In this document: positions 47,540 to 63,115 of the stretch, piece after piece
Layout of the letters: each line of letters begins with the position of its first letter
Position numbering within the stretch: position 1 is the stretch's first letter
Assembly (NCBI GenBank): GCA_019218315.1
Contig: JAHUUI010000003.1
Span: 206,443 to 270,442 of the forward strand
Length of the DNA stretch: 64,000 nt
Direction: 5' to 3'
DNA from: Cardiobacteriaceae bacterium TAE3-ERU3
Lineage (GTDB): Bacteria; Pseudomonadota; Gammaproteobacteria; Cardiobacteriales; Cardiobacteriaceae
The notes under the pieces: generated by a model
Seen by the model: only the letters and a program-made list of their open reading frames with translations
Databases searched by the model: none
Told to the model about the DNA's origin: nothing
Made by a program: the position numbers and the translations under genes

Positions 47540-48213
47540 GGGGAGGCTCGATAACATAAATTATCTAGGATACTCACATGAGAAAGAGTCGTTTGAGCCA
47601 TTTATAGCAGGTGCAACAGCACGAATAGCAGCCGCTTTAGTTGGTATGAATAAGACGACAGCAGCATATTACGTTCATCGTCTAAGAGAGCTGATCTATC
47701 AGCACATCGAACATATGGAAATGCTTTGTGGTGAAGTTGAAACTAATGAATCTTATTTTGGTGGCAAGCGCAAAGGAAAGCGAGGTAGAGGTGCGGCTGG
47801 AAGGCATCTATATTTGGATTACTTAAGCATGATGCAAGGTTTATACAATTGCTATAGCAAAACTCACACAGCAACACTATTACCTATTATTCGTGAGCAT
47901 GTTAAACCTGACAGCATTGTTTATACTGATACCTACCGAAGTTATGGTATGGCTGATGTGAACGAGTTTTATCACTACCGGATAAAATCACAGCAAACCG
48001 TTTGCCAACAAGCACAATCACATAAATGGTATAGAGAACCTTTGAAATCAGACTAAACGCTATTTACGCAAATTCAACGGTATACCGAAAGAGTATTTCC
48101 AGTACTTTTAAAAGAATGCGAGCGTTGCTTTAATAATAGCGACCTTAAATCCCAACTAACCTTTTTTAAATACTAACTAAAGGGCGTTGAAACTAGTTAT
48201 CTATGACAGCCCC
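47540..48213 (+). mobile_element. Degenerate IS1595-family (ISXO2-like) element
   Basis: The ends are imperfect inverted repeats, GGGGAGGCTCGATAAC on the left and, read inward from the right, GGGGCTGTCATAGATAAC. TTAA lies outside each end; full 8-base target duplications do not match. The right TTAA contains the brxL stop codon, so the element inserted exactly behind the BREX operon. The internal transposase gene is broken. Confidence 0.75.
47578..48176 (+). pseudogene. IS1595-family transposase, broken
   Basis: Pieces in different frames give MRKSRLSHL, then FIAGATARIAAALVGMNKTTAAYYV, the first catalytic part CGEVETNESYFGGKRKGKRGRGAAGR, IVYTDTYRSY, and RYLRKFNGIPKEYF with a final LLKECERCFNN. 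This is the ISXO2-like DDE/DDN transposase order. An early frameshift, an internal deletion or frame change after AAGR, and a stop after QYF or EPLKSD make it inactive. Confidence 0.85.
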
Positions 48214-50262
48214 TTAAGTTTTAATAAATGTGATCTCGAATGCCTTGCATGGGCGATATTGCTGCAGACGATTAGCAAAAGTAAAACTATCCTTCATTTC
48301 ATATTGCTGGAAAACATCAAGACCACGATCAAGGGAAATTTTCCAACCATGATCGGTGACAATATGTCGGGCATGAATTGTACCGGTAGTATCAAATTCC
48401 CAAGTAAAGTCCACACCTGTACTCTTTGCTGACTTTTGTATCTGCTCAAAGTTTTCTTTTTGTTGCTCACCTCTAAAATCATCTTCTACTGTTATCAAGT
48501 GCACAGCTACTTCTTCATCTGGCCCCTTATGCTTCACTATAGTCTCAAGAAATTCCATAAAATTTCGTATCTGATAGAACAGACGGATATAAGGATCCGT
48601 TACAGTGAATTTAGTCGCTCCTTTGATATAAGGGCCTAGTAATGTATCAAAGGAGAGCCCCTTCTGGTTTTCCTGAAAAGTAAGATGTTTTTCTTTGAGA
48701 ACAGGTTCATCTGAAACATTATGCGCAGGAGAACCTGGATGCTGGACTGATTGTTCAACTCCCAGTATTTCACTATCTTCTTCCCCTATAATGGTTTTGT
48801 GGTAGTAGCTAGGATATTCCTCTTCTTCAAGTGTAGTAACAGGCGTTGCTTTGCCATCAAGAGCCTGATAAGAAAAATAAACATCACCATAAGTTGAATC
48901 AATGCGCATTAGTTGATCTTTGACGCGTTTACGGCCTTCAATTGCGAACCGTAAAAGTTCCTCTGTCTCTTCCCTTGTTGCCTCTCCATGCGGGAATAGT
49001 ATTTTCATCAGACCAGAGAAAGTCTTATGAATACCATCGCGATCCCGTGTAGAGATATCGGAAGATAGAGAGAAGTACTGCTTATAGCGATCCGAGTAAT
49101 CGTGATTGCGCAGTGAGCGTAGAATCTCGGCCAAGTAATCAACCACAAAACCATAACCACTGGAGAACATTTCACCCCGAATGATATCTACCTCCCAGCC
49201 TGGTATATAGAAGTGAATACGATCCAAAAATGCTGAATCGTAGAACTTATCAGGCAATTCGCAAAATAGATCAGAATGCTTAAGCATATAAGGGACGGTG
49301 TGCTGTGTGTTCCCCACAAATACCATAGAGGCTTCAGCACCCAAGGTCTCAACGCCTCGGGAGAAAGACTTGTTGGCCATATAGTTTTTCATGATATCAA
49401 CCAAAGCCTTGTCTACTCTTTTTTGCTTTCCGGCAAACTCATCAAAAGCAACACAGTCCCAGTAGCCAACCAAGCCAATCTTTCCGGATGAATTATTCAC
49501 AAACAACTTTGGTACTGTTACTTCGCCACCAGAAATCAAAATCCCGTGAGGTGAGAACTCTGAATAAATATGTGATTTGCCGGTTCCCTTAGGACCAAGT
49601 TCAATCAGGTTGTAGTTGCGTTCGCAAAAAGGGATCAAGCGAATTAACTGGGTAAGCTTGCTGCGTTTGCCGAACATCTCAGGATTAAAGCCGATACTTT
49701 GTATCAGTAAATCAATCCACTCATCAGTAGTAAATTGTTTGCGTGCCTCAACATAAGTATCAAAATCGAAGTGTGAAAGCTGAATTGGCTTGAGAGTTGA
49801 AAGTATCCAAGGGCTAGTACCCTTATCTTCAGTAAACTCATATTCCAGATCCGCAATGCACCATACTCCTCCGACCAAAAGTTTGGGATGCTTTTTTACT
49901 GTTCCGGAATCGACTAGTATTTCTTTAATACCCAAATTAGAAAAATGTGCTTCATAGACGTCTTTCTTATCATTCAGACTAACGCTGATTTTATCGATAA
50001 CCTTATAGCGTCCTTTTTCCTTGATATTGGAGCGAACTAATCCTGCTTCATTGCGGTGTACATAATGCCTGGCAAGGATCTCCTTAACCGTCTCAATACC
50101 TGTCTGAATAGTTGCTTCATCGCTGGTAGCACAGTATTGGCCAAGCAAATATTCCAGAACATAAGAGGGAACGATGGCATTGCCTTTAACGGCCTTGACG
50201 AGGTCTTTGCGTACGACTAGCCCTGGAAAGAGTGAATTTATTTTCTGATCTAGTTTGTTCAT
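48214..50262 (-). CDS. brxL: BREX BrxL AAA+ protein with C-terminal MITD1-like domain
   Basis: A 682-residue BREX protein. Residues 1-455 match BrxL closely: VVRKDLVKAVKGNAIVPSYVLEYLLG, YKVIDK, FSNLGIK, Walker A GPKGTGKS (223-230), Walker B VAFDEFAG (271-278), and EGRKRVKDQL. After a variable linker (455-530) the usual Lon-like domain is absent. Residues 535-682 instead resemble the C-terminal phospholipase-D-like domain of eukaryotic MITD1: GLSFDTLLGPYI, TDPYIR (555-560), HLIT, IHARHIVTDHGWKI and GLDVFQQY, ending RPCKAFEITFIK. BrxL forms DNA-encircling rings needed for type 1 phage defence. This end may change membrane or DNA binding. It is the last BREX gene; the IS1595 remnant touches its stop. 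Confidence 0.92.
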   Translation of the reverse strand: MNKLDQKINSLFPGLVVRKDLVKAVKGNAIVPSYVLEYLLGQYCATSDEATIQTGIETVKEILARHYVHRNEAGLVRSNIKEKGRYKVIDKISVSLNDKKDVYEAHFSNLGIKEILVDSGTVKKHPKLLVGGVWCIADLEYEFTEDKGTSPWILSTLKPIQLSHFDFDTYVEARKQFTTDEWIDLLIQSIGFNPEMFGKRSKLTQLIRLIPFCERNYNLIELGPKGTGKSHIYSEFSPHGILISGGEVTVPKLFVNNSSGKIGLVGYWDCVAFDEFAGKQKRVDKALVDIMKNYMANKSFSRGVETLGAEASMVFVGNTQHTVPYMLKHSDLFCELPDKFYDSAFLDRIHFYIPGWEVDIIRGEMFSSGYGFVVDYLAEILRSLRNHDYSDRYKQYFSLSSDISTRDRDGIHKTFSGLMKILFPHGEATREETEELLRFAIEGRKRVKDQLMRIDSTYGDVYFSYQALDGKATPVTTLEEEEYPSYYHKTIIGEEDSEILGVEQSVQHPGSPAHNVSDEPVLKEKHLTFQENQKGLSFDTLLGPYIKGATKFTVTDPYIRLFYQIRNFMEFLETIVKHKGPDEEVAVHLITVEDDFRGEQQKENFEQIQKSAKSTGVDFTWEFDTTGTIHARHIVTDHGWKISLDRGLDVFQQYEMKDSFTFANRLQQYRPCKAFEITFIKT

Positions 50263-50275
50263 CGTTCCCTATCCT

Positions 50276-52774
50276 TTAAAAATCAAAATCACTGGTAAAC
50301 GAGCGTTGCATCCGATAGCGGAGTGATTTGTATTCTTTATAATGGGATGTTCCGCCATGCTTTTCTTCGAGCCGAAGAATAACCTCTTGACCATTAACTT
50401 CATCAGCTTTGCGCGTTAATACAAATCGAACTTGCAATTCCCGTTCCCGAGCATTGTCCGAACCAAGATCAAAGATTAAATCATGGCTATCAGAGATTAA
50501 ATCACCCGCTTCGGTATAAATACCGGCTCGTAGAACTCTTGGTTGAACCTTATCTGTCACTGGTGAGGACTGATACATTGTCACAGCCAATTGACCGGAT
50601 GTTATCACTGAACTTGACCCGCTCAGAATATCAACATCGACAACTGTCACATCACTCTGACGCTTTTTATTGACTTTAAGTACCGGGATAACAACTTCTT
50701 GTAAAGATGCGCCACCATGAACGAAGCGACTACCTGCGCCCTGCACGCGTAGACGGTTAATTGATTTAGGAATTTGGATCTCAATTTCGCCAGCAAGACC
50801 TATCTGTTCGGCATTGAATTTACGCAGACTTGATACTTCAGCAAGGCCTTCTCCAATAATATAGCGTCTGCTACGAGAAAAGATTTTTTCACCTTGGGGT
50901 GCAACCGTAGAAAAATCACTTTCGTCAATAGGGCGATTCTGGTAAATAAAGCCGTGATCTGCAGTAACAAGAATATTATTGGCATTCGCTGCTGTCAGCT
51001 TTTTAATTAGTTTAACAATATCGTCTAAAGTTTTTTCGGCAGCCTCAAAAGCCTCTACTTCCGAGTGTTTGTCATCTCCTGTATGGTCTATACGATTGTG
51101 ATAGATGTAAACTACATCGTTGGCCTTCAGCAATTCTCGACCTGCATCGCGGTTAAGTGCCATAAAGTTTTCCGCAGAAACCGCTGCACCTCGACCATCC
51201 AATGCCATTTGTAAAATTTTGTTTCGGTTAGCTGTACCTTGAGAACTTTGATCATCAACCAGTACGGAGCCTAAGTCGTTATCAGTAATAGTCAGTGTTT
51301 TATTAGGCAGTAATGCGGCCATGCCAAGCTGAGTGTAGCTGGGCAGCATTGAAAGTACAGACTCCAGCTCAGCACTGTAGCGATCTTCCTTACGTATTAA
51401 GCTGAGCAGCTCATCACCAATTTCATAGCGTAAGGCGTCCGAGATAATCACACAAATCTTGTTATCTCTTTGTAAAAAAGGTTTAACCCAGTGCTCAAAA
51501 AACTCATTTTGTTTACGTACAGGCAAAGCTTCCCACTTGGGTACATTATCTACAAAACTTTGAAAGCGATCTCCCAGTTTTAACAGATAGTTATTAGAAT
51601 AGAAATTATCAATCTGCTCGGTTAAACCACTCATCAATTCTGTCGTATTTGACATCCGTACATGGTAAATAAATTTTCGATAAAATTGATCAAGCTGGTA
51701 CCAGAGGTTGCTATAGCATTGAATGCCTTCTACAAGGCTATTCATTGTTAAATCAACCTCTCCAAGAACATGCATAAACTGTGCTGCATAATCAATTGCT
51801 TCATACGAGTACTTATAATCATGATACCAGCGACTTTGACGCCGCTGACGAACCCAGATTGCCACATCTCCCTTTGATACTGTACGGGCTGCCACCGCAC
51901 GTACAAGATCACTGATTATTTTTAAATCAATCGAGCGGAAATAATCCAACTCCAACAACTCACGAAAATCTCGCTTGATTAAGTCCTGTTCAATATTAAG
52001 TGCTTCAGCATACCGACCTGATAGCAATTCGAAACAGTCTTCAAATTGACGGCTGTCCTTCCAGCGTTTAAGGAAAACCAAGGCATCACCAGTTAATTTT
52101 GCCTGCCGATCAGTACCCATAAAGTAGCAAGACTTGAACAACTCAATCGCAAAATCTTCGATACCCGCCTCATCGGACTTGTAGCCATAGCAGCGATCCA
52201 TCTGATCCCACAAGAAATCATTTAAGCCGCATCTATCTATCAGCTTAATTTTATCTTCACGTTCGTCTGATAACTCTTGCAGCAAATTTTCTACAACTGT
52301 ATCCATGCGCGGCTCACTCCCCGCACAGACAGCCAGCATTTTCAGACGAATTTGTCCAGCCGAGTCATCGGGCTTCAAGAGCTTCTTAAGTGCATCTTTA
52401 CGTTTGTTTGCTTGAAAAAATGCCGTATGTCGAGTGACTATATCTGCAAATTCCAAACCAAGCTCGAGCTCGGATAGCCAAATGGCTGCTTGATCGGTAC
52501 GGAGTTCGGCATGAGCAAGCTGCACGTCCAATAACCAGTTGTCAATATCAGCAGGCTCTGGCCCCTCGCGGTAAAGCAAAAATTTTTGTTCTGGCTGTTT
52601 GCGCAAAATTCTATATTTGATGCCGTATTCATTATTAGCAAGTTCGAGCTTCTCAATGCCTACCAGATCAAGTACCTCAAAAGCATCCCGCAGCTCCCGT
52701 TTCTCGTCGTACCAAAATACAATTCTGTGCCGATTGAAGAGTTTGGTTAATGTATTTGCTATTTGCTGATTCAC
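50276..52774 (-). CDS. pglZ: BREX PglZ alkaline-phosphatase-superfamily protein
   Basis: An 832-residue core BREX protein. The alkaline-phosphatase-like metal-site motifs are ICVIISDALRYEIGDELL (D446) and later ILVTADHGFIYQ; the N-terminus has the family's FWYDEKRELRDAFE. PglZ helps PglX methylate host DNA and is needed for phage restriction; its chemistry is not fully resolved. It starts at GTG, overlapping the stop of the upstream DUF262 gene by four bases, so the two are translationally coupled. Confidence 0.94.
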   Translation of the reverse strand: MNQQIANTLTKLFNRHRIVFWYDEKRELRDAFEVLDLVGIEKLELANNEYGIKYRILRKQPEQKFLLYREGPEPADIDNWLLDVQLAHAELRTDQAAIWLSELELGLEFADIVTRHTAFFQANKRKDALKKLLKPDDSAGQIRLKMLAVCAGSEPRMDTVVENLLQELSDEREDKIKLIDRCGLNDFLWDQMDRCYGYKSDEAGIEDFAIELFKSCYFMGTDRQAKLTGDALVFLKRWKDSRQFEDCFELLSGRYAEALNIEQDLIKRDFRELLELDYFRSIDLKIISDLVRAVAARTVSKGDVAIWVRQRRQSRWYHDYKYSYEAIDYAAQFMHVLGEVDLTMNSLVEGIQCYSNLWYQLDQFYRKFIYHVRMSNTTELMSGLTEQIDNFYSNNYLLKLGDRFQSFVDNVPKWEALPVRKQNEFFEHWVKPFLQRDNKICVIISDALRYEIGDELLSLIRKEDRYSAELESVLSMLPSYTQLGMAALLPNKTLTITDNDLGSVLVDDQSSQGTANRNKILQMALDGRGAAVSAENFMALNRDAGRELLKANDVVYIYHNRIDHTGDDKHSEVEAFEAAEKTLDDIVKLIKKLTAANANNILVTADHGFIYQNRPIDESDFSTVAPQGEKIFSRSRRYIIGEGLAEVSSLRKFNAEQIGLAGEIEIQIPKSINRLRVQGAGSRFVHGGASLQEVVIPVLKVNKKRQSDVTVVDVDILSGSSSVITSGQLAVTMYQSSPVTDKVQPRVLRAGIYTEAGDLISDSHDLIFDLGSDNARERELQVRFVLTRKADEVNGQEVILRLEEKHGGTSHYKEYKSLRYRMQRSFTSDFDF

Positions 52775-54654
52775 AAAATTTCCTCTTCAAATATCTCTTC
52801 ATCAGAATCTTCTGCAGGCGTTTCCTCCAGCATTGATTTAGCAACATACACACGAGAAATTAAACGTTGCTTAAGATTTGCCCGACGGATTTGATAAAAA
52901 TCTTCAAAGTCAGAAAACTCAAAACTGACATCATCCGCCAATAAATCTCCCCTTGTAATATGAATAGATGGATCATTAAACCACTCATTTAGGCTTCTTG
53001 TACCTTTTGACGCATTCTGGGAGTCATTCAATAAATGGAGATTTGCAATCGAATTCCAGTGAGCAGAATCTTTATAGAAATCAAATAATTTTGAATCTAC
53101 TGATAGAAATGAATGCTTCTTCAATGCTTTTTTATCAAATTCAGATTTAGGATGGAGGTGATCAATATGATAGATCCTATTGGGATCCATTTCAGGAAAT
53201 AAAAGATGCAAAAGCGCTCTACAGCGCCTTTCTCCGTACTGGATATTAAGCATACTTTCAATATAATCGTCATCAAACCGAAGGTCTTTATTGGTTGCTT
53301 TGTAGCGTTCAATAATTGCATCTAGAGGAAATTCCGGCTCATTTATATTCGATCTCAGCACCTCTCGCATACTGGTGAGAATACTATCTGCCTGGCCACC
53401 AAAAATACCTTTAAGTAGAACCATATAAAGCCATTGACTAATTTTGGCTCTCTGGTTATCTACTTTTGCAGGATTATTTATTACATTATAAAGTGGTTTT
53501 TCATTAAAAATATGCTTATATAAATAATAGCAAATAGGTATAACTGCATTTTTGGAAGTGAGAGATTGTGGATTAATACCGAAACTTTTAATTAAAATAA
53601 AAGTTGCTTTGATGCATTCTTGAATTGACGACCATTGATCTTGAATAATGGCGACCTGTTCTGACTTAAAATTCTGGACTTTAAATCTCACGTCAGTATC
53701 AGTGAGCATCAGACATGTTTTTAAAATCCAGTCTCTTTCAATATAGAAACCCATATTCACGTTTTGGTGAATATATTTTATCAGACTATCTATTTCTTGC
53801 CGGAAATCACCATCCCAGTTTGCTACTGCTATAGACATTAGCAGATCAGCAAAATCAAGCTTTGTTCCGCCACTATTGGTTCGAATAAAAACATCCAACA
53901 CATGGTCTATCTCTTGGCTGGTTTCTTTAAAATAATGGATAATTTTCTGTATTCTTATGGTGTTATAGACTTTTAGGAGTGTCTTGCGCGCAAAATCATT
54001 ATCGAGTAGGTTTCGTTTTTCAAGCTCAGGCAAGACAATATCCATAAGAATATCATCCGAACTTGATTTCTCAGCCATGTTTAATACGTCATGCATACAA
54101 AACCAATGGTGTGCAGCCGCAGGATCAGATCTCGCCTCCTCATACTGACGCTCTGTTAAAAAGCGGAAGTTATAGTACATTAAGGAGTCATCCTGCTCTC
54201 TATCAACAGGTCGCTTCAGATCAAGGTACAACTTTCTGGGCGGGAGAACCTTATTGTCTTGTGTACTTGGCCACCACACCCTTGGTTGCTTATAGGCATA
54301 GGTACTACAAAGCCCTATGTAAAGTGAGGTAAGTCGCTGCTGTCCATCAATAACAGCATTAAAATCCTTGGAACTTGCATTGGTTATATAGTGGGGATTT
54401 TCCTCTTTGAATCGTTGACAATATGCATTTAAAAACTCGTAAAATTTATATCCTTGTTTGATATGAGAGTTCTTAACTTCCCAAAACATACAGGTATTAA
54501 TCGGGTAGCCTCGCAAAATAGAATCGAATAACACGCAAATCTGACGAGTACTCCAGACAAACTTACGCTGGATTGCAGGAAGTAAAAGTTCTCGACTATT
54601 AATGCTATCGATCGCTTGTTTGATAGTAATGGGTTTTTCGTATTCACCTGCCAT
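52771..54654 (-). CDS. DUF262/HNH protein inside BREX operon (GmrSD/BrxU-like)
   Basis: A 627-residue protein with an N-terminal DUF262 domain (LLLPAIQRKFVWSTRQICVLFDSILRGYPI; DGQQRLTSLYIGL at about residues 103-115, the NTPase-like motif) and a C-terminal HNH-type end (IDHLHPKSEF, then NSIANLHLLN...NASKG). This is the single-chain GmrSD layout, a type IV restriction enzyme family that cuts modified DNA; BrxU is a member encoded inside another BREX locus. The ATG at 54654 follows the pglX stop by two bases. It probably covers phages whose modified DNA escapes BREX. The middle is AT-rich. Confidence 0.88.
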   Translation of the reverse strand: MAGEYEKPITIKQAIDSINSRELLLPAIQRKFVWSTRQICVLFDSILRGYPINTCMFWEVKNSHIKQGYKFYEFLNAYCQRFKEENPHYITNASSKDFNAVIDGQQRLTSLYIGLCSTYAYKQPRVWWPSTQDNKVLPPRKLYLDLKRPVDREQDDSLMYYNFRFLTERQYEEARSDPAAAHHWFCMHDVLNMAEKSSSDDILMDIVLPELEKRNLLDNDFARKTLLKVYNTIRIQKIIHYFKETSQEIDHVLDVFIRTNSGGTKLDFADLLMSIAVANWDGDFRQEIDSLIKYIHQNVNMGFYIERDWILKTCLMLTDTDVRFKVQNFKSEQVAIIQDQWSSIQECIKATFILIKSFGINPQSLTSKNAVIPICYYLYKHIFNEKPLYNVINNPAKVDNQRAKISQWLYMVLLKGIFGGQADSILTSMREVLRSNINEPEFPLDAIIERYKATNKDLRFDDDYIESMLNIQYGERRCRALLHLLFPEMDPNRIYHIDHLHPKSEFDKKALKKHSFLSVDSKLFDFYKDSAHWNSIANLHLLNDSQNASKGTRSLNEWFNDPSIHITRGDLLADDVSFEFSDFEDFYQIRRANLKQRLISRVYVAKSMLEETPAEDSDEEIFEEEIL

Positions 54655-54656
54655 GA

Positions 54657-57600
54657 TCAATCCTCTTTTGCTTCAAGACCCACAATTTTCTTCAACGCTG
54701 TGCCAAATTTAGGGTAGTTTACTTTCACGCCATCATCGAGATCGATCGCTACTTGTTCAGTCGCTAGTGGGTAGAGTACCTCATGTTCGTATTCTTCCAT
54801 CTCGGTAATCACCTTGCTGATTTTTTCGATCTCTTTGAGCGCCTTGGTTTTTTCGCTCTTACTGCTATTGGTGTTAATGCTGACCGCTTCGAGATGGCGT
54901 TTATGCGATATGAGTTTGCTGTGGAATTCACGTAAATAATTATTGAGCACGACACTAACAGTATCCGGCTGATAACGGTGCATATAAATCAATGCATTGA
55001 AATTTCCTTTCGGGCTGGAAAACAGCCAATAAATCGGACGCTTTTTATAGCGCTTGACGTGATCATTGTAAAAATCCTTCTGGAAGTATTTGCGAATATC
55101 CTTGCCCAAAGCATTTTCAATAAACGCCAGATTATCAACGTAATGTTCCTCGCCGAAAGTTGTTCGTAAAAATTGACGGAAACGTTCAACGATATCATCA
55201 GTAAACCAGTCATTGTCGAGAATTGGGATAACATTATCCTTATCCGGCATAAAGCTTGGCTCTGCATTCTGTGCCAAATAATCCTCTATGCTCTCACCTT
55301 GATTGGCCAGTATCAGTCCCGGCTGATCAAGGCTGTAGCGACCGAACATACAACCGACAGCATAGGAAATCAATTCACGTATGGTATCGGCAAGTAACAG
55401 TGCTTCTAGTTCCTCGTCTGTTTTATTACCGCCATAACGGTAGTGCGGATTGCAGGTCAAAGTAATCTCATTCAGCGGAACATCTGGCGTCAGTTCATCC
55501 TGCAAGCCATAAGCATCAATAAAGATTCGGTTATTCTCTTCTTCTAGACGCAGCATCTCTTGTGTCATTTCATGCCAATGTTGACGCAATGTGTTATATG
55601 TTTCTTGTAGGGTATCTTGGCGGTATTCAGGATTAAGCAGTGGTAGTGCGGTGAAATCCCATGAGGCTTCGTAGGCATCCCAGTCTTTAGATGATAGCTT
55701 GATAAGGGCTTCTATTATGTTTAAATTTTTTATTTCTTCTTTAAAAGGTAACTTTGAAATGGTTCCTTGTTCAAAATTTAGTGTTTGACTAAGCAAAGAT
55801 AAAAAAAATGAACATACCTTAGAATTTAAATATTGAGTTACTTTGAGTGTATCAATACGATTATCAGTAGGAACTTTCGATCCTGCATCACTAAAAATAA
55901 ATCCACTATCAGTATAACGACATGAAAAATTAGAAGATGTAATTTTTCCCCATGTGACACCTGGTTTAAAATAATAGAATGTATTTTTTGCTACGAATTC
56001 TGGATTTCCATTTAAATAGGGATATTTTAATACAATAGTATTTTTTATATCTTCTCCATTACATTCCCAGTTAACAATAGATGTATTATTTCCGTACCAT
56101 TTTCTAAATCCCCCTCCTTTATCCATAGGAAACCACTTCATTTTTGATTCAAGAGCCATTTCACAAGTTTCCATACCAAATCCAATCTTTCTGATTGGAA
56201 CTTCGAACCAATTTCTAACAAATTTATTATTATCTGTAGTAGTTAATCCCTGTCTTGGCATATATCTTTGAGACAAAGAAATAGTATTTTCAAATGAAAT
56301 AAAAGCATTTGAGTGAATCCAATATACAACAGGACTTCCAGGAATCTTTTTAAAGTCCGCTGCAGAAGCACGGTAGAACCAGCCACAGTCTGTATTTTGG
56401 ATTGCCTCAAGTGCGCGTGGAGCCTGATTTTCAGCACCACGGAAATCAGATAAGCGTACGTATCCCCCTTTATATTCTTCGCGATGAGCATTTTCTAAAG
56501 TAAAGGTGCAAATTGGTACTGTTGCCCCATCAAATCCTGAATACTCCAGTTGAATAAGTGAAGTAATTGTTTTTTTGTCAATAATAAAGTGGCGCAACTT
56601 CTCATAGGAGGAAATAAACATCCATACAAAAGGTGTCATAAATCCTAGTTGCCCTTTGGCCAGAGCTAATTCGCTATTGCGCACAACAAATGCAGCAAAT
56701 AAATCCGACTTCATATCCTGATAGTGATCTTTTAACCACTTTGCCAATCTCGGATTCATACCTTTCCCCCCCATATACGGTGGGTTAGCAACAACCACAT
56801 GATATTTAGGGCTTAGGTAATCAACCTGATGCAGGACTTGCAGCACTTTTTTATGTGTATTGCTTAAAAATAGTTGTCCGGAAATATCTTTTGCCCGGAG
56901 CATATTGAGTGCTTCATTGACTTCGGTCACTTGCGGGCGAATTAGAGCACCAAAGTTATCGGCCTCTTCGAATTGACTCAGTGTTTTTCTCAGTGGCAAA
57001 GTGAGCAAATCTCGCCCAACAAACTCCATATAGGCATCTAACTCGTTATCAGCAAAATGGACGTTTTCCAGTACACAGATGTTGGGTTTGATTTTTTTAG
57101 TGAAGAAACGTCGCTGTTTGGCACGTGCTTTCATGGTCAGGGCAAAAGCAGCGAGCTCTCCGGCACGCTCGTCAATCTCGATACCGTACAAGTTATGGGT
57201 GAGGATTTTTTCCGGTATGTCACGAGCATCGTAGCCTTCTTCTTCGTAAATGGCGTAGAGCAAGTCAAAGGCATAGGTCAGCATATGACCGGAACCGCAT
57301 GCGGGATCACAAATTTTGATTTCTTCCGGTTTGGTGATGCGCAAGAAATCATCCTCAGCCTGCTCGGGTTTGATGTAGTAATCCATCTGTTCTGCCAACT
57401 TTGAGTTGGGACGATTGAGCAGCCACAAGCGACCAAGAGAGTTTTCAACCAGATAGCGAACAATCCAGTGCGGCGTAAATAATTGGGTTGCAGCGGGAAT
57501 ATTTTCCGGTGTGATTTTTTTATTTTTTTTCAGCCCATCAAATACTTCGTCTTTTTTTTCAGAAATGTAGAACTGGTAGAGCCAGCCGATCACCTCAACA

Positions 57601-58178
57601 TCTTCACAGGCATCACGTGTCATGGCTTCCCGTGTGTTGGCAAGAATGGAGTTGTCCGAAAGTAGATTATCAGGCATCAATAATTCGGTGTAATCATCGA
57701 TACGCTGGAACAGGAATGGCATAGCTGCGTTCAAGTAGTTACAAACAGCAACTACCAGTAAGCGGTATGCTTCTCCTTGTGGATCGCGGCTGGGTGCTTT
57801 ACCGCTGAGCAAATCGGTGACATATTGCCGGACATCATCACGAACCATTGTTTCATCTATGTGTCCCATTTTGGCTTCAGCGAGAATTTCTGGCTGGGTT
57901 TGCCCTTCAGTCGGCGATACCACACCAATACGGGTATAGTGGTTCACGTCCATAAAACGTAGCGCACAAAATCGGTTGAACCAAATGTATGCTACGCGTT
58001 CAATAATTTGTTCCTTGCTGTGCTCTTGAATTGCTTCTTCGAGTTTTTTTACGGCTTCCGCATTTTCGCGTCGGGCGGCACTGTCTTTGATCAGTACCTG
58101 TTCCAGTTTGCCCGAAACCTGTTCCAGTAGGCGGCGGCGAGCCGACTGAGCAAATTTTTTAAGTTTAGCTGTTTCCAT
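54657..58178 (-). CDS. pglX: BREX adenine-specific DNA methyltransferase PglX
   Basis: A 1173-residue type 1 BREX methyltransferase that marks host DNA at a non-palindromic adenine site and is required for exclusion of phage. The SAM motif DPACGSGHML begins at D291 and catalytic NPPY at residues 465-468 (VVANPPYMGGKGMNP). The region after about residue 650, where target recognition resides in the family, is much more AT-rich than the N-terminal half, in line with recombination of specificity segments. It follows brxC by about 175 bases. Confidence 0.95.
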   Translation of the reverse strand: METAKLKKFAQSARRRLLEQVSGKLEQVLIKDSAARRENAEAVKKLEEAIQEHSKEQIIERVAYIWFNRFCALRFMDVNHYTRIGVVSPTEGQTQPEILAEAKMGHIDETMVRDDVRQYVTDLLSGKAPSRDPQGEAYRLLVVAVCNYLNAAMPFLFQRIDDYTELLMPDNLLSDNSILANTREAMTRDACEDVEVIGWLYQFYISEKKDEVFDGLKKNKKITPENIPAATQLFTPHWIVRYLVENSLGRLWLLNRPNSKLAEQMDYYIKPEQAEDDFLRITKPEEIKICDPACGSGHMLTYAFDLLYAIYEEEGYDARDIPEKILTHNLYGIEIDERAGELAAFALTMKARAKQRRFFTKKIKPNICVLENVHFADNELDAYMEFVGRDLLTLPLRKTLSQFEEADNFGALIRPQVTEVNEALNMLRAKDISGQLFLSNTHKKVLQVLHQVDYLSPKYHVVVANPPYMGGKGMNPRLAKWLKDHYQDMKSDLFAAFVVRNSELALAKGQLGFMTPFVWMFISSYEKLRHFIIDKKTITSLIQLEYSGFDGATVPICTFTLENAHREEYKGGYVRLSDFRGAENQAPRALEAIQNTDCGWFYRASAADFKKIPGSPVVYWIHSNAFISFENTISLSQRYMPRQGLTTTDNNKFVRNWFEVPIRKIGFGMETCEMALESKMKWFPMDKGGGFRKWYGNNTSIVNWECNGEDIKNTIVLKYPYLNGNPEFVAKNTFYYFKPGVTWGKITSSNFSCRYTDSGFIFSDAGSKVPTDNRIDTLKVTQYLNSKVCSFFLSLLSQTLNFEQGTISKLPFKEEIKNLNIIEALIKLSSKDWDAYEASWDFTALPLLNPEYRQDTLQETYNTLRQHWHEMTQEMLRLEEENNRIFIDAYGLQDELTPDVPLNEITLTCNPHYRYGGNKTDEELEALLLADTIRELISYAVGCMFGRYSLDQPGLILANQGESIEDYLAQNAEPSFMPDKDNVIPILDNDWFTDDIVERFRQFLRTTFGEEHYVDNLAFIENALGKDIRKYFQKDFYNDHVKRYKKRPIYWLFSSPKGNFNALIYMHRYQPDTVSVVLNNYLREFHSKLISHKRHLEAVSINTNSSKSEKTKALKEIEKISKVITEMEEYEHEVLYPLATEQVAIDLDDGVKVNYPKFGTALKKIVGLEAKED

Positions 58179-58353
58179 TATTCATCCTTTGACTCAGGTG
58201 CGCGTCAGTTATCAACTTTCTCTGCAATTACCTGTTATTAACTCGAAGCATTGATACAATCCAGCAATCTAGTCCGATTTAGTTCTTCAGAGTCCATCAT
58301 TGTAATCGAGCTATTTTCTCTATTTACAATTTAAGTTCTGCCAGAGCAAGCAC

Positions 58354-61300
58354 TTAAATTTGAATGCGTTTTCCTTTGCGGATTTCTTCCAACAATGTTT
58401 CACGCATGGCATTAAGGTATTGCTCTACGTCTGCTTCATCACTCAACAAAGCTTTACCGAAAGAAACGCTCACATTACGGGCATGCACAATCTCGGTGCT
58501 GGCTTTTTGATCCAGACTTTTATCTGCTCTATCGGTTTGGCTGGATTCCGGTACTGTTTCTGATTTTGTCCAAGACTCCATCTTAATAAGCAACTGCCGA
58601 TATGTGTTTTCTTCAAATCGATTGTGGTTATCACGAATAACTGCAATTAATTTCTCTCCCTCAATAGCTTTATTGAATTCATCAAAGGCATGCATAAGTT
58701 GTGCTTGCTGTTCATCTTCCAATGCTTTGAATTCAGGCATACCGCAGAGTCGACTGTTAAGTACGGAAATTGCTTCTTTGGCCTTGTCAATTTCAATCTT
58801 AATTTGGTCATCGACCTTCGCCTGTAAAATTTCAACCTGTGCTTTCATCTGCTGTATATGACTGGCTTTGAAGCACTCAGGATCACTCAAGCTATTTTCC
58901 AGTTCTTTGCTCTCGTCACTATTAATATAAGGGAAGTTGGATTTTTGCGTTGCAATAAACTCACGAGTACTATCATAGATAGCTTTTTGAGATCCATTCA
59001 TGAATTTGAGGATGGGATCAATGATGTTTTCCTTCATCTCAAACAGCTCGTCTTCCTCATGGAGAAACTCGCCTAGATACCACGTATAACTTTTTCCGGT
59101 CAGCTTATTAAGCTTTTCAAGTACCGGCTTCAGCGTATACAAAAATGGATAGCGGCCTGTTTGTGTTGTGAGCGTATCAAGATGACTTACAAGCTCTTTG
59201 AGTTCGGAAGCCGTTTCTTGCCCCAGTGGTTTCGCCTCACTGGATTGAGGAGGCTTGTCAAAAAAGTCCTCGAAAAACGCTTTAAGGGTACGGATCTGTG
59301 ACGCAGTAAATTCGATTTGCGGCTCGAGTATTATGTTGCTGTGTTCGTTGTTATTGCGTAACGCCTTCTCTAGCTTCTCGTCTTCTAACAGATTGCCGTC
59401 AGAGCGAACTTCCACTTTACCTAGCATACATAGCTTTGCCAGTGTACAAAGCACTGCTGCATAGCTCCAACCATAAGGTTTTCGCTCAAATTGCTCTAGT
59501 AGTTTCTTAAGTGTTGTACGTTCACCCTTATTCTGATTTCTTTGGATAAACGCCAATATCTCTTGTTCCGGTTCTGGCAAAGCAGAAATGGTATCTTCTC
59601 CAAGCAGTTCTCCTTGTGAAGACTTAAGGAGTTTGGCAATGTCACTTTCACTGTAAGCCACGTTACGAAGCATGCGAAGGTTGGGGTAGGCGCTGGCGAT
59701 CAATCCATTAAATCCACGTACTATTCGCGTTTGCGCATCCCCGGGATTCATATCTATATCACTGCCCTCAACGAATAATTTCGCTTTACCTAGTAAATTC
59801 TGAATGCGTTCTTTCAGTTCGGCATGGCGTTGCTGATTTTGTGTACCCTTGTCAGAAAGGATACGTTTTATTGCTTCTTGCTGCGTGATTGAAAAATTCT
59901 GGCGAATATATTTATCTGCTCGTTTATACATAAGCAGGTCACTGACGAGTCGATCATCTGCGGGCATAAGAACAAAGAGTTCATCGGCTTTATAGCTGGA
60001 ATTTATCTTAATTAGTTTCTCGTTATCCGCATGCTCATGGTATGGACTAATAATATGGATAGCCAATTCATATCCACGTCCATACAGTTTTTCATCAATT
60101 TTTCTGGAAAATGGATAATCTTGTCCATTTTCGTCATAACGGATCTTTCGAGGCCTGATAACTTGCTCAAAAATGATTTTTTCAAGTTCAGCAATGACAT
60201 CTGATGTCTCAACGTCCGTATTTTTAATTTCCTGTTCGATGTCTTTCTCTTCATCAGTCAGATATTCGTAGGTTTCACCATTACGCTGAATATATGTCTG
60301 TTGCTCGAGAAGATTGAGCGCATCTTCAACTTGTTTGCGTAGTGCTGGCAAATCTTGCTTAAAACTATCCAACATGAGGACGCACAGATTGCGAATAGTT
60401 GACTTGAACTCCTTCACGTATTTGACCAGAAACAATGCTTTGAGCAAGCGAATCGCAAAGGGAGCATCGAGATGATTTTCTGCTTGAATGATCGCGCGCT
60501 GGATATTTGATTTTAATGTGGTCCGAATACCCTCGAACATCAAGTCAAAAGTAGCCAATTGTCCGATTTGATGCCCTCCAATCTGAATGGCAACTTGCTG
60601 AAATACGCCAAGCATTGAGCGCTCACCCACCGAACTGTGCTTTCCTTCGAAAGCATTATGTTCCGACAAGCTCTGAATGGCTGATTGAAATAATGCAAAC
60701 TGGTAGGGAATAAATGGGTAACTAAGAGTGAAACTATCCAGATCCTGATAGTTACGATAAGTTTGCGAGCCATCCGCAAAATCAAATAGAGTCTTGAAGT
60801 TATTGCGCTGCTCATCATAAATACCCGACAGAATCTCTTCACCCTGTTCTGTTTTCATTAACAGGCGCTTTTGAATCACTTCTGATACATCGGCACTGGT
60901 TAACTTCATGCGATTGGCGAATCGTGCCTGGATCTTGGAAAAATCGTTACTTTGTTGCTTACCCATTTCACCAACGACCGTATTCATATCTTCTTGAGCC
61001 GTCACGATAACCCAGGCACGCCCCCGACATTTTGTTGCTAAGCTCTCGGCAATGGTCTGCAAGTTGGTCATGAGTTTGACATTTTCAGCAATATATTGAC
61101 CAACTTCATCGACAAAGAAGTTCAAACGGAAGTTAGCTGGTTGTTTCTCGATATAGGCATGCACCTGTTCAGCAAAATCTTCGATTGATACATGATACTG
61201 ACTGCGGTATTTGTCGAGTATACCCATAGCAGATGTTTCATCATCACCAGTAACCTGAGCATAAGCTTTGGCAATATTTTTTGCTTCAAGCAAAGCTTGT

Positions 61301-61881
61301 TCACGCCCTTTCTGCCATGTTCTGCCGGCAATGGACTCATAAGCCAACTTAAATTCTTCATACAATCCACGGCTATCAAGTTCGCGCTCAAACTGGGCAA
61401 TATGCCCTTGTTTACCGTAATAACCACACATCTCATCAAAAACTTTGACGAAAACGGCGAGGAGAGCATCGACCTGTGTCTTGCTAATCACATCAGCTTT
61501 TTGATCGATGTTAAAGAGTATGCTTTTTGATGGGAGAGCAACAGCCCGCTTGAGACTAGCACTAAGAAGTGCATTGCCATCACATTTGGGTAGGAAAAGA
61601 TCAAGTGCAGATGCACCGTCAATTTGCCTGTTTTCCAACAGTAGTGCCAACATTTTCAATAAATGAGATTTACCTGATCCAAAGAATCCCGATACCCACA
61701 CGCCATTAGCGCCTTCATAGTTGTTATAGGCATCAAGAAAAGACTCCAGCCGTTTTTCAACCTCGTTAGTAAGGACGTACTCTTCAATCTCAAGTCGTAG
61801 GCTGGCTTCATCATCGGCTTTAATCACACCTTCGATCGGGCGATTAACTTCTTTTAAAAAAATCTCATTAAGAATCATCAT
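58354..61881 (-). CDS. brxC: BREX ATPase BrxC
   Basis: A 1175-residue P-loop protein matching BrxC/PglY. It starts MMILNEIFLKEVNRPIEGVIKAD and has Walker A GFFGSGKSH (65-73), with LNFFVDEVGQYI as a likely Walker B region and VIVTAQEDMNTVVGEMG as sensor. A helical C-terminal half follows. BrxC is essential for BREX exclusion and is proposed to regulate or assemble the complex. It begins 12 bases after brxB. Confidence 0.95.
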   Translation of the reverse strand: MMILNEIFLKEVNRPIEGVIKADDEASLRLEIEEYVLTNEVEKRLESFLDAYNNYEGANGVWVSGFFGSGKSHLLKMLALLLENRQIDGASALDLFLPKCDGNALLSASLKRAVALPSKSILFNIDQKADVISKTQVDALLAVFVKVFDEMCGYYGKQGHIAQFERELDSRGLYEEFKLAYESIAGRTWQKGREQALLEAKNIAKAYAQVTGDDETSAMGILDKYRSQYHVSIEDFAEQVHAYIEKQPANFRLNFFVDEVGQYIAENVKLMTNLQTIAESLATKCRGRAWVIVTAQEDMNTVVGEMGKQQSNDFSKIQARFANRMKLTSADVSEVIQKRLLMKTEQGEEILSGIYDEQRNNFKTLFDFADGSQTYRNYQDLDSFTLSYPFIPYQFALFQSAIQSLSEHNAFEGKHSSVGERSMLGVFQQVAIQIGGHQIGQLATFDLMFEGIRTTLKSNIQRAIIQAENHLDAPFAIRLLKALFLVKYVKEFKSTIRNLCVLMLDSFKQDLPALRKQVEDALNLLEQQTYIQRNGETYEYLTDEEKDIEQEIKNTDVETSDVIAELEKIIFEQVIRPRKIRYDENGQDYPFSRKIDEKLYGRGYELAIHIISPYHEHADNEKLIKINSSYKADELFVLMPADDRLVSDLLMYKRADKYIRQNFSITQQEAIKRILSDKGTQNQQRHAELKERIQNLLGKAKLFVEGSDIDMNPGDAQTRIVRGFNGLIASAYPNLRMLRNVAYSESDIAKLLKSSQGELLGEDTISALPEPEQEILAFIQRNQNKGERTTLKKLLEQFERKPYGWSYAAVLCTLAKLCMLGKVEVRSDGNLLEDEKLEKALRNNNEHSNIILEPQIEFTASQIRTLKAFFEDFFDKPPQSSEAKPLGQETASELKELVSHLDTLTTQTGRYPFLYTLKPVLEKLNKLTGKSYTWYLGEFLHEEDELFEMKENIIDPILKFMNGSQKAIYDSTREFIATQKSNFPYINSDESKELENSLSDPECFKASHIQQMKAQVEILQAKVDDQIKIEIDKAKEAISVLNSRLCGMPEFKALEDEQQAQLMHAFDEFNKAIEGEKLIAVIRDNHNRFEENTYRQLLIKMESWTKSETVPESSQTDRADKSLDQKASTEIVHARNVSVSFGKALLSDEADVEQYLNAMRETLLEEIRKGKRIQI

Positions 61882-61892
61882 GCTTTCCTTGT

Positions 61893-62504
61893 CTATGCTT
61901 CACAGTGAAAGATATTAAATGCTCGATAGTATTTGTCATCATGCAGTCTTCCAAAGAGATCGAGCGATGCTCCGGAGTCTGGAGAATGCGTATATTCTCC
62001 AGGAAAAAACATGACAGTCGGTTTTTCCTTTGCAGTACTTTGCAGATTATTCAGGACATTGTGTGAACGTATATAGGGGAAAACTTCTCCAACACCAGAA
62101 AGGAAAAGCACCTCGAAATCGCTGTTTGCCAGCTTGGTGGCAATTGCCGGAACCAAATGAGCCTCAGGATCGAGTACGCCTTGTAATAGCTCTTTGAGTT
62201 CTTCTTTAGAAACAGAAGATTCCATTTCCAGTATCTGATCCCAGATGTCACGATCTCTAAGAATTTCTATTGAAAGATCATATAAATTAATTATCAGGGT
62301 TTGGATCCCATTCTGCTCAAGGCGATTGGAAAGTTGACGCTGAAGTCGCTCTATTTCAACGGACTCCTTCGGTTGATAAGGGCAAATAAAGAACGGAACT
62401 TCGTTACCAAGACCTTGTTTTTTTAGAAAACGCTGACCTGATATGACGCTATAGAGATGTTCCATTCTCTCCGAAATCGGAGCTTTCGCTAAATCGGCAG
62501 ACAC
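61893..62504 (-). CDS. brxB: BREX protein BrxB (DUF1788)
   Basis: A 203-residue protein of the DUF1788 family: ISERMEHLYSVISGQRFLKKQGLGNEVPFFICPYQP near the start, then LFLSGVGEVFPYIRSHNVLNNLQ and VMFFPGEY. BrxB is needed for BREX defence, but its biochemical role is not established. Its first 16 bases overlap brxA. Compact, single-operon placement fits type 1 BREX. Confidence 0.94.
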   Translation of the reverse strand: MSADLAKAPISERMEHLYSVISGQRFLKKQGLGNEVPFFICPYQPKESVEIERLQRQLSNRLEQNGIQTLIINLYDLSIEILRDRDIWDQILEMESSVSKEELKELLQGVLDPEAHLVPAIATKLANSDFEVLFLSGVGEVFPYIRSHNVLNNLQSTAKEKPTVMFFPGEYTHSPDSGASLDLFGRLHDDKYYRAFNIFHCEA

Positions 62505-63115
62505 TTTTTCATCTCCTTTACATCAGATTCAAACACAGGGAAAAACAAAATATCACTTTGCCTTATTTGGTTAATCATATCCAGCATTCTTGGGCTTAAT
62601 AAAGCTGTTTGTATCAAATTATCAGAAGTCAAAAGATCCGTTTCACGTAATATTTTGAAGAGAACTTGCCGAAGTTTAGCTCTGGTTGCAGGAGTAATCT
62701 TATCCAGTTCTGGATGCCATTCAGACTTTCGGTTAAAAAAAGCGTCAAAATCTTCGTGGGTTAGGGTGCCCTTTAATGTGATATGACGCTCTCGAAGTAC
62801 TTCAATAGCGAAATCAGCGACAAATCTATATCTGCGACAAATCGCAAGCCAAAGTATGTAAGACTGCTCTTGATAGCTACAACTAGCTAGGAATTCTATT
62901 TCTGTTAACGTCAAGGTCTGCAACCGAGAGCTGGCTTCTCGGTAGATTCTTTGCAGGGTACTTAATGTTCTCGTCTGTAAGGTGTTTTCTACAATAACCT
63001 GCGTTCGAACAGAATCCCAGTTGCCAAGGTCAAGATACAATAAAGCTAACTCAACCGACTCACGGTGCAAAATTCCCCCCGTAGTAAATGACATACTGTA
63101 TCTATCGTTATTCAT
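62489..63115 (-). CDS. brxA: BREX protein BrxA (DUF1819)
   Basis: A 208-residue DUF1819 protein, the first gene of the operon. Seen: YSMSFTTGGILHRESVELALLYLDLGNWDSVR and LTEIEFLASCSYQEQSYILWLAICR. The family's structure resembles NusB and it binds DNA, but its contribution to defence differs between systems. No WYL-type BrxR regulator gene is present upstream. Confidence 0.94.
   Translation of the reverse strand: MNNDRYSMSFTTGGILHRESVELALLYLDLGNWDSVRTQVIVENTLQTRTLSTLQRIYREASSRLQTLTLTEIEFLASCSYQEQSYILWLAICRRYRFVADFAIEVLRERHITLKGTLTHEDFDAFFNRKSEWHPELDKITPATRAKLRQVLFKILRETDLLTSDNLIQTALLSPRMLDMINQIRQSDILFFPVFESDVKEMKKCLPI

Follow-up and report, generated by a model that had tools for sequence, protein, structure and literature searches.

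The window analysed here, a stretch of 64,000 nucleotides from Cardiobacteriaceae bacterium TAE3-ERU3 (contig JAHUUI010000003.1, positions 206,443 to 270,442), carries a BREX operon whose BrxL does not end in the expected Lon-like domain. What has taken the place of this domain, and what could it do in phage defence? The initial annotation, made by a model from the sequence alone, had recognized the N-terminal part as BrxL, had likened the C-terminus to that of human MITD1, and had proposed that the effector could either be directed to membranes or use a PLD-like fold on DNA.

A BrxL with a MITD1-type C-terminus

The operon (48214-63115, minus strand) is a complete type 1 BREX operon, with brxA, brxB, brxC, pglX and pglZ, and brxL is its last gene (Table 1). 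It also includes a GmrSD-like gene; in the description of a recent survey (PMC12839542), genes of this family provide type 1 BREX with auxiliary nucleases. A short IS1595-type transposase ORF (136 aa, 47646-48056), with a partial domain match, adjoins the operon. The transaldolase gene that is seemingly cut at the right edge of the window is whole in the genome (325 aa); a close transaldolase, sought for an empty-site comparison, was absent from the only other genome of the genus.

Table 1. Genes of the BREX operon and regions of brxL, in window coordinates.
Feature	Position	Strand	Basis
brxA	62489..63115	-	
brxB	61893..62504	-	
brxC	58354..61881	-	
pglX (brxX), N6-adenine methyltransferase	54657..58178	-	
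GmrSD-like / HEC-05 gene, between pglX and pglZ	52771..54660	-	GmrSD_N; PADLOC HEC-05
pglZ, type A	50276..52774	-	
brxL, 682 aa, BrxL with MIT_C (PLD-like) C-terminus	48214..50262	-	real reading frame
BrxL_N domain, residues 11-141	49840..50232	-	Pfam, E 2.1e-50
BrxL_ATPase AAA+ domain, residues 153-463	48874..49806	-	Pfam, E 1.3e-133
Predicted disordered linker, residues 485-520	48703..48810	-	pLDDT under 50
MIT_C / PLD-like domain, residues 535-681	48220..48660	-	Pfam, E 1e-44; predicted structure
Putative active-site segment, H630-x-R632-x4-D637 ... R646-G-L-D649	48316..48375	-	profile alignment; conservation

Both its domains and its operon context identify the protein as BrxL, and the Walker A (GPKGTGKS) and Walker B (VAFDE) motifs are intact in the translation. 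The match to the BrxL structures 8emc and 8emh was limited to residues 3-467 (phmmer, PDB sequences). The Lon/RadA-like C-terminal domain that defines Lon-type BrxL was not found in residues 524-682; we rejected a Lon/S16 identity for residues 530-682, which gave no such match by Pfam, phmmer against PDB sequences, Foldseek or VIA-align. The C-terminal domain of the protein is MIT_C. The Pfam model PF16565 scored 152.4 bits against a curated cut-off of 25 and was covered in its entirety (1-142 of 142), residues 524-673 matched human MITD1 (4a5z/2ymb) with an E value of 9e-18 by phmmer against PDB sequences, and a profile built from 37 diverse bacterial MIT_C domains reached MITD1 at 1.7e-44.

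Structure prediction gave a concordant picture. The AlphaFold2 model of the tail, computed with 57 aligned domains as input, had a pLDDT of 94.1, and the predicted structure of residues 524-682 superimposed on MITD1 with a Z of 22.3 (1.7 A over 151 residues, VIA-align). Only the linker and the tail were used from the full-length model, in which the ATPase was poor (pLDDT under 50 over 242-325; shallow alignment). A Foldseek search with the predicted tail returned MITD1 first (4e-17) and PLD enzymes next, the best of these being Zucchini and phosphatidylserine synthase. By VIA-align, the matches following MITD1 were SauUSI (Z 9.4), phosphatidylserine synthase (9.2), NgoAVII (8.7), NucT (8.3), Nuc (8.1) and BfiI (7.0); the predicted fold thus matches solved PLD enzymes, and SauUSI, NgoAVII and BfiI are restriction nucleases. 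SauUSI leads the PLD enzymes here, but since the PLD Z values lie near one another its rank is no more than suggestive.

Given the Pfam, phmmer and structure matches, the likeness of the tail to MIT_C is far beyond chance and a Lon-like end is absent; judged by sequence and predicted fold together, the C-terminus is a real PLD-family domain of the MITD1 type. The initial reading of the domain architecture was therefore borne out by both the profile and the structural comparison. It erred in one detail, the single Arg/Gly change that it had seen in the GRGLD block: the motif reads GWKISLDRGLDVF, and the change relative to MITD1 is Gly to Asp (residue 645).

Distribution and history of the tail

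The architecture had been taken as a possible new mode of action for type 1 BREX, a view that gives way before the published record. According to a survey by Rakesh and Krishnan (2026, NAR; PMC12839542), Lon is replaced by an HKD-endoDNase domain, with a lysine to arginine change and an HRD motif, in 1,030 of the 2,913 type 1 taxa with BrxL, and the survey names Li et al. 2025 (the Menshen paper) as the first to report BrxL-HKD. The HRD motif and the frequency lead us to infer that the HKD domain of the survey is Pfam MIT_C. MITD1 is not mentioned in the text of the survey, and our literature search for text linking MITD1 and BREX returned one irrelevant match.

Our own searches agree that the variant is common. 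Among 378 genomes of the window's phylum, 16 have a BrxL above the cut-off; six of these carry an MIT_C tail and the other ten have Lon-type ends. At least 18 plasmid records match the protein end to end, including records from Methylomonas, Sphingobium, rhizobia, Rhodococcus, Hymenobacter and Tenacibaculum, and a genome scan found 326 encoded relatives; many phyla are represented among the best 80. We thus rejected the idea that the architecture is peculiar to the window: a BrxL with a PLD-like tail is already known, widespread and published, and ordinary for the field by 2026. Variations on the arrangement were seen as well. The KSB1 genome G406 has two MIT_C-tailed BrxL (L106 and L038), one per tail subtype, and at three loci (L022, L177 and L006) brxL is broken between the ATPase and the tail, or degraded, so that MIT_C lies in a frame of its own.

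In a tree of the N-terminal and ATPase regions, the MIT_C-tailed BrxL form two groups split by Lon-type BrxL, an arrangement that needs two tail changes and has moderate support (86%). Since the two groups are separated in this way, BrxL may have exchanged its tail on more than one occasion. Trees of the tail itself place MITD1 with the second MIT_C group (Thioflavicoccus, Hymenobacter and relatives), with bootstrap values of 99-100 in three taxon sets. Both annotated loci of this group encode BrxE, and their tails (L004:15945-18044 and L005:15983-18061; HDREIR...GRGLDFYQKP) are nearer human MITD1 than the window's tail is. When the BrxL tails were held together without MITD1, the constrained topology was rejected in one taxon set (p 0.031) and not rejected in another (p 0.157), in tests that used sets named after the first tree had been viewed and a single eukaryotic sequence. 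We tentatively suggest, with somewhat less than even confidence, that the tail of a BREX effector in bacteria may be the ancestor of the membrane-binding domain of MITD1, in which case a PLD domain of DNA defence would have been captured and turned into a partner of ESCRT-III. Should MITD1 still group with one BrxL subtype when more eukaryotic sequences are included, a human cytokinesis protein would be tied to bacterial phage defence. A search of a phage collection with the Thioflavicoccus tail gave no match.

MIT_C is not confined to BrxL; it recurs in a number of architectures, and defence-type loci are among their settings. Two genes (L103:7640-10483 and L176:7353-10193) encode a dynamin-like GTPase (Dynamin_N 65-293) with a C-terminal MIT_C; they come from plasmid pTs485 of Ca. 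Thiodictyon syntrophicum and from another genome, and the protein at L176 has a weak match to PADLOC LeoA. A protein of 1065 aa (L174:8113-11310) has MIT_C followed by Sel1 repeats (17 matches), and its locus includes genes for a DpdE-like helicase, a DrmMI-like methylase and an Mrr-type nuclease. IF2_N is joined to MIT_C in a protein of 349 aa on the Paenarthrobacter plasmid pYJN5-1 (L104:9440-10489), and standalone distant relatives with HDRYL motifs are encoded on the minus strand at L178:7778-8704 and L180:3154-4113. MIT_C-like matches on ABC transporter ATPases and on odd frames (L013-L016) were weak (about 20 bits) and were rejected.

The HRD site and the function of the tail

We aligned the 37 bacterial MIT_C domains with PLDc_2 proteins from related genomes using hhalign. 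This set H630-A-R632-HIVT-D637 on the H-A-K-TSVF-D of the PLD enzymes (IHARHIVTD on IHAKTSVFD) with an E value of 1.7e-4, against 0.15 for a reversed control and 0.019 for the best of 60 column-shuffled controls. The tail therefore has HxRxxxxD in place of the HxKxxxxD of catalytic PLD/HKD enzymes, with the His and Asp present and Lys changed to Arg. Conservation was assessed in 141 BrxL rows with an MIT_C-type tail, a redundant set picked by Walker A in which Walker B is present throughout. Y558, R560, Q564, T591, W640, G647, L648, D649 and R670 are invariant in all 141; the His is kept in 139 (Gln replaces H630 in L126 and L090), the Arg in 140 (Cys in L003) and the Asp in 126, its position otherwise being occupied by Asn (10), Ser (3) or Gly (2). 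Human MITD1 has every one of these conserved positions except for an Asn at that of D637. As far as the alignments go, the pocket is under strong constraint, yet the Asp needed by the published nuclease reading varies.

The best explanation of these data, in our view, is a BrxL variant already known, whose tail would act as a tethered DNA nuclease of PLD fold on an AAA+ DNA-loading ring; we hold this nuclease reading at about one half, mainly because that Asp is not fixed. In the variant, the inactive Lon-like C-terminus of BrxL has given way to a PLD-superfamily domain, which belongs to the MIT_C family. BrxL of the Lon type assembles into rings, which load on DNA with ATP and are paired tail to tail via the C-terminal domain (PMC10164562), and the N-terminal and AAA+ parts of the variant would load in the same manner. 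The tail, on its flexible linker, would pair with a second copy, and the paired tails would supply two H-R-D half-sites for one active site. Where PLD enzymes have only one motif per chain, an active site takes two copies. The paired tails would then cut through the phosphodiester backbone of phage DNA that is unmethylated and held by the ring, and the tail would act as a second nuclease beside PglZ.

The predicted MITD1/PLD fold with its structural matches to restriction nucleases, the placement of H-x-R-x4-D on the HKD position within a near-invariant pocket, the completeness of the type 1 operon, and the occurrence of MIT_C both in NsnC-like proteins and at a locus that has DpdE-like, DrmMI-like and Mrr-type genes all argue for a nuclease. 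Against it stands the Arg that replaces the HKD lysine in nearly every copy, and we know of no proven PLD nuclease with this change. Strict catalytic selection is not evident either, with the Asp lost in 15 and the His in 2 of the 141 otherwise intact-looking BrxL. MITD1, which is described as membrane-binding, keeps all the listed positions bar the Asp, and the slight acidity of the tail (net -4) gives no hint that its surface could by itself bind DNA strongly. Our literature search found no reported activity for this tail domain.

The chief alternative, which we think less probable, is that the tail is non-catalytic and either joins two rings at their tails or uses the conserved pocket to bind partner proteins or DNA phosphates. 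An equivalent structural role would be the simplest replacement for a Lon-like C-terminus that has no protease motif and mediates ring-ring dimerisation (PMC10164562). The variation at the Asp alongside the constancy of the fold and pocket residues Y558, Q564, T591 and R670 would fit such a role, and so would PglZ, cited in PMC12839542 as a reported type 1 BREX nuclease, so that a second one is not required. Against this reading, the nearly invariant H-x-R and GRGLD residues occupy PLD catalytic positions, and MIT_C recurs in unrelated defence-type architectures without need for ring docking. That the tail cleaves RNA, a nucleotide signal, a phospholipid or some further non-DNA substrate, leading to an abortive response, appears improbable: the PLD superfamily spans lipids, RNA and DNA, and Zucchini and phosphatidylserine synthase head its Foldseek matches, but the tail is fused to a DNA-loading ring within operons for DNA modification and restriction.

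We regard it as very unlikely that the tail, by analogy with MITD1, targets BrxL to the inner membrane via anionic lipids and places restriction at the site of DNA entry. The strong homology and near-identical predicted fold to MITD1, whose PLD domain binds membranes (PMC6015221), speak for this, as does the dynamin-like GTPase with MIT_C in one bacterial architecture. The conservation common to BrxL and MITD1 nevertheless includes the PLD pocket, for which no membrane is needed, and other contexts of MIT_C are DNA-targeting defence loci. Phosphoinositides, moreover, are generally not made by bacteria. Of the two uses proposed in the initial annotation, then, a PLD fold acting on DNA is the better supported, because of the HxKxxxxD alignment, the defence-type contexts of MIT_C and the HKD-type DNase reading given in PMC12839542, while nothing that we found spoke for membrane targeting beyond the analogy with MITD1 itself. 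The residues named here bear on whether about one third of BrxL proteins are nucleases; roughly a tenth of the BrxL with this tail have lost the proposed catalytic Asp.

Comparison with known systems

The closest known system is the BrxL-HKD variant of type 1 BREX, which has the architecture seen here (BrxL N-terminus and AAA+, with the Lon end replaced by PLD/HKD with Lys changed to Arg); compared with the description in PMC12839542, we found nothing that sets the window's BrxL apart. The PADLOC model PDLC02508 likewise covers residues 1-682 (model positions 1-695 of 698) with no evident difference; the library of 2023 already contained this architecture. Canonical BrxL of Acinetobacter (8emc/8emh) aligns end to end over the shared region (E 2e-149), with Walker A and B intact, and differs in its C-terminus, which is Lon/RadA-like there and PLD-like here. 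NsnC of Menshen, whose PADLOC model matches the standalone proteins at L178 (E 2e-9) and L180 (8e-8), is a protein of about 310 aa that is related to the BrxL tail only distantly. The C-terminal domain of human MITD1 is of the same family and fold as the tail and keeps the His, the Arg and the other highly conserved pocket residues; it differs in having Asn where BrxL has D637, and it is attached to an ESCRT-III-binding MIT domain in place of the BrxL ATPase.
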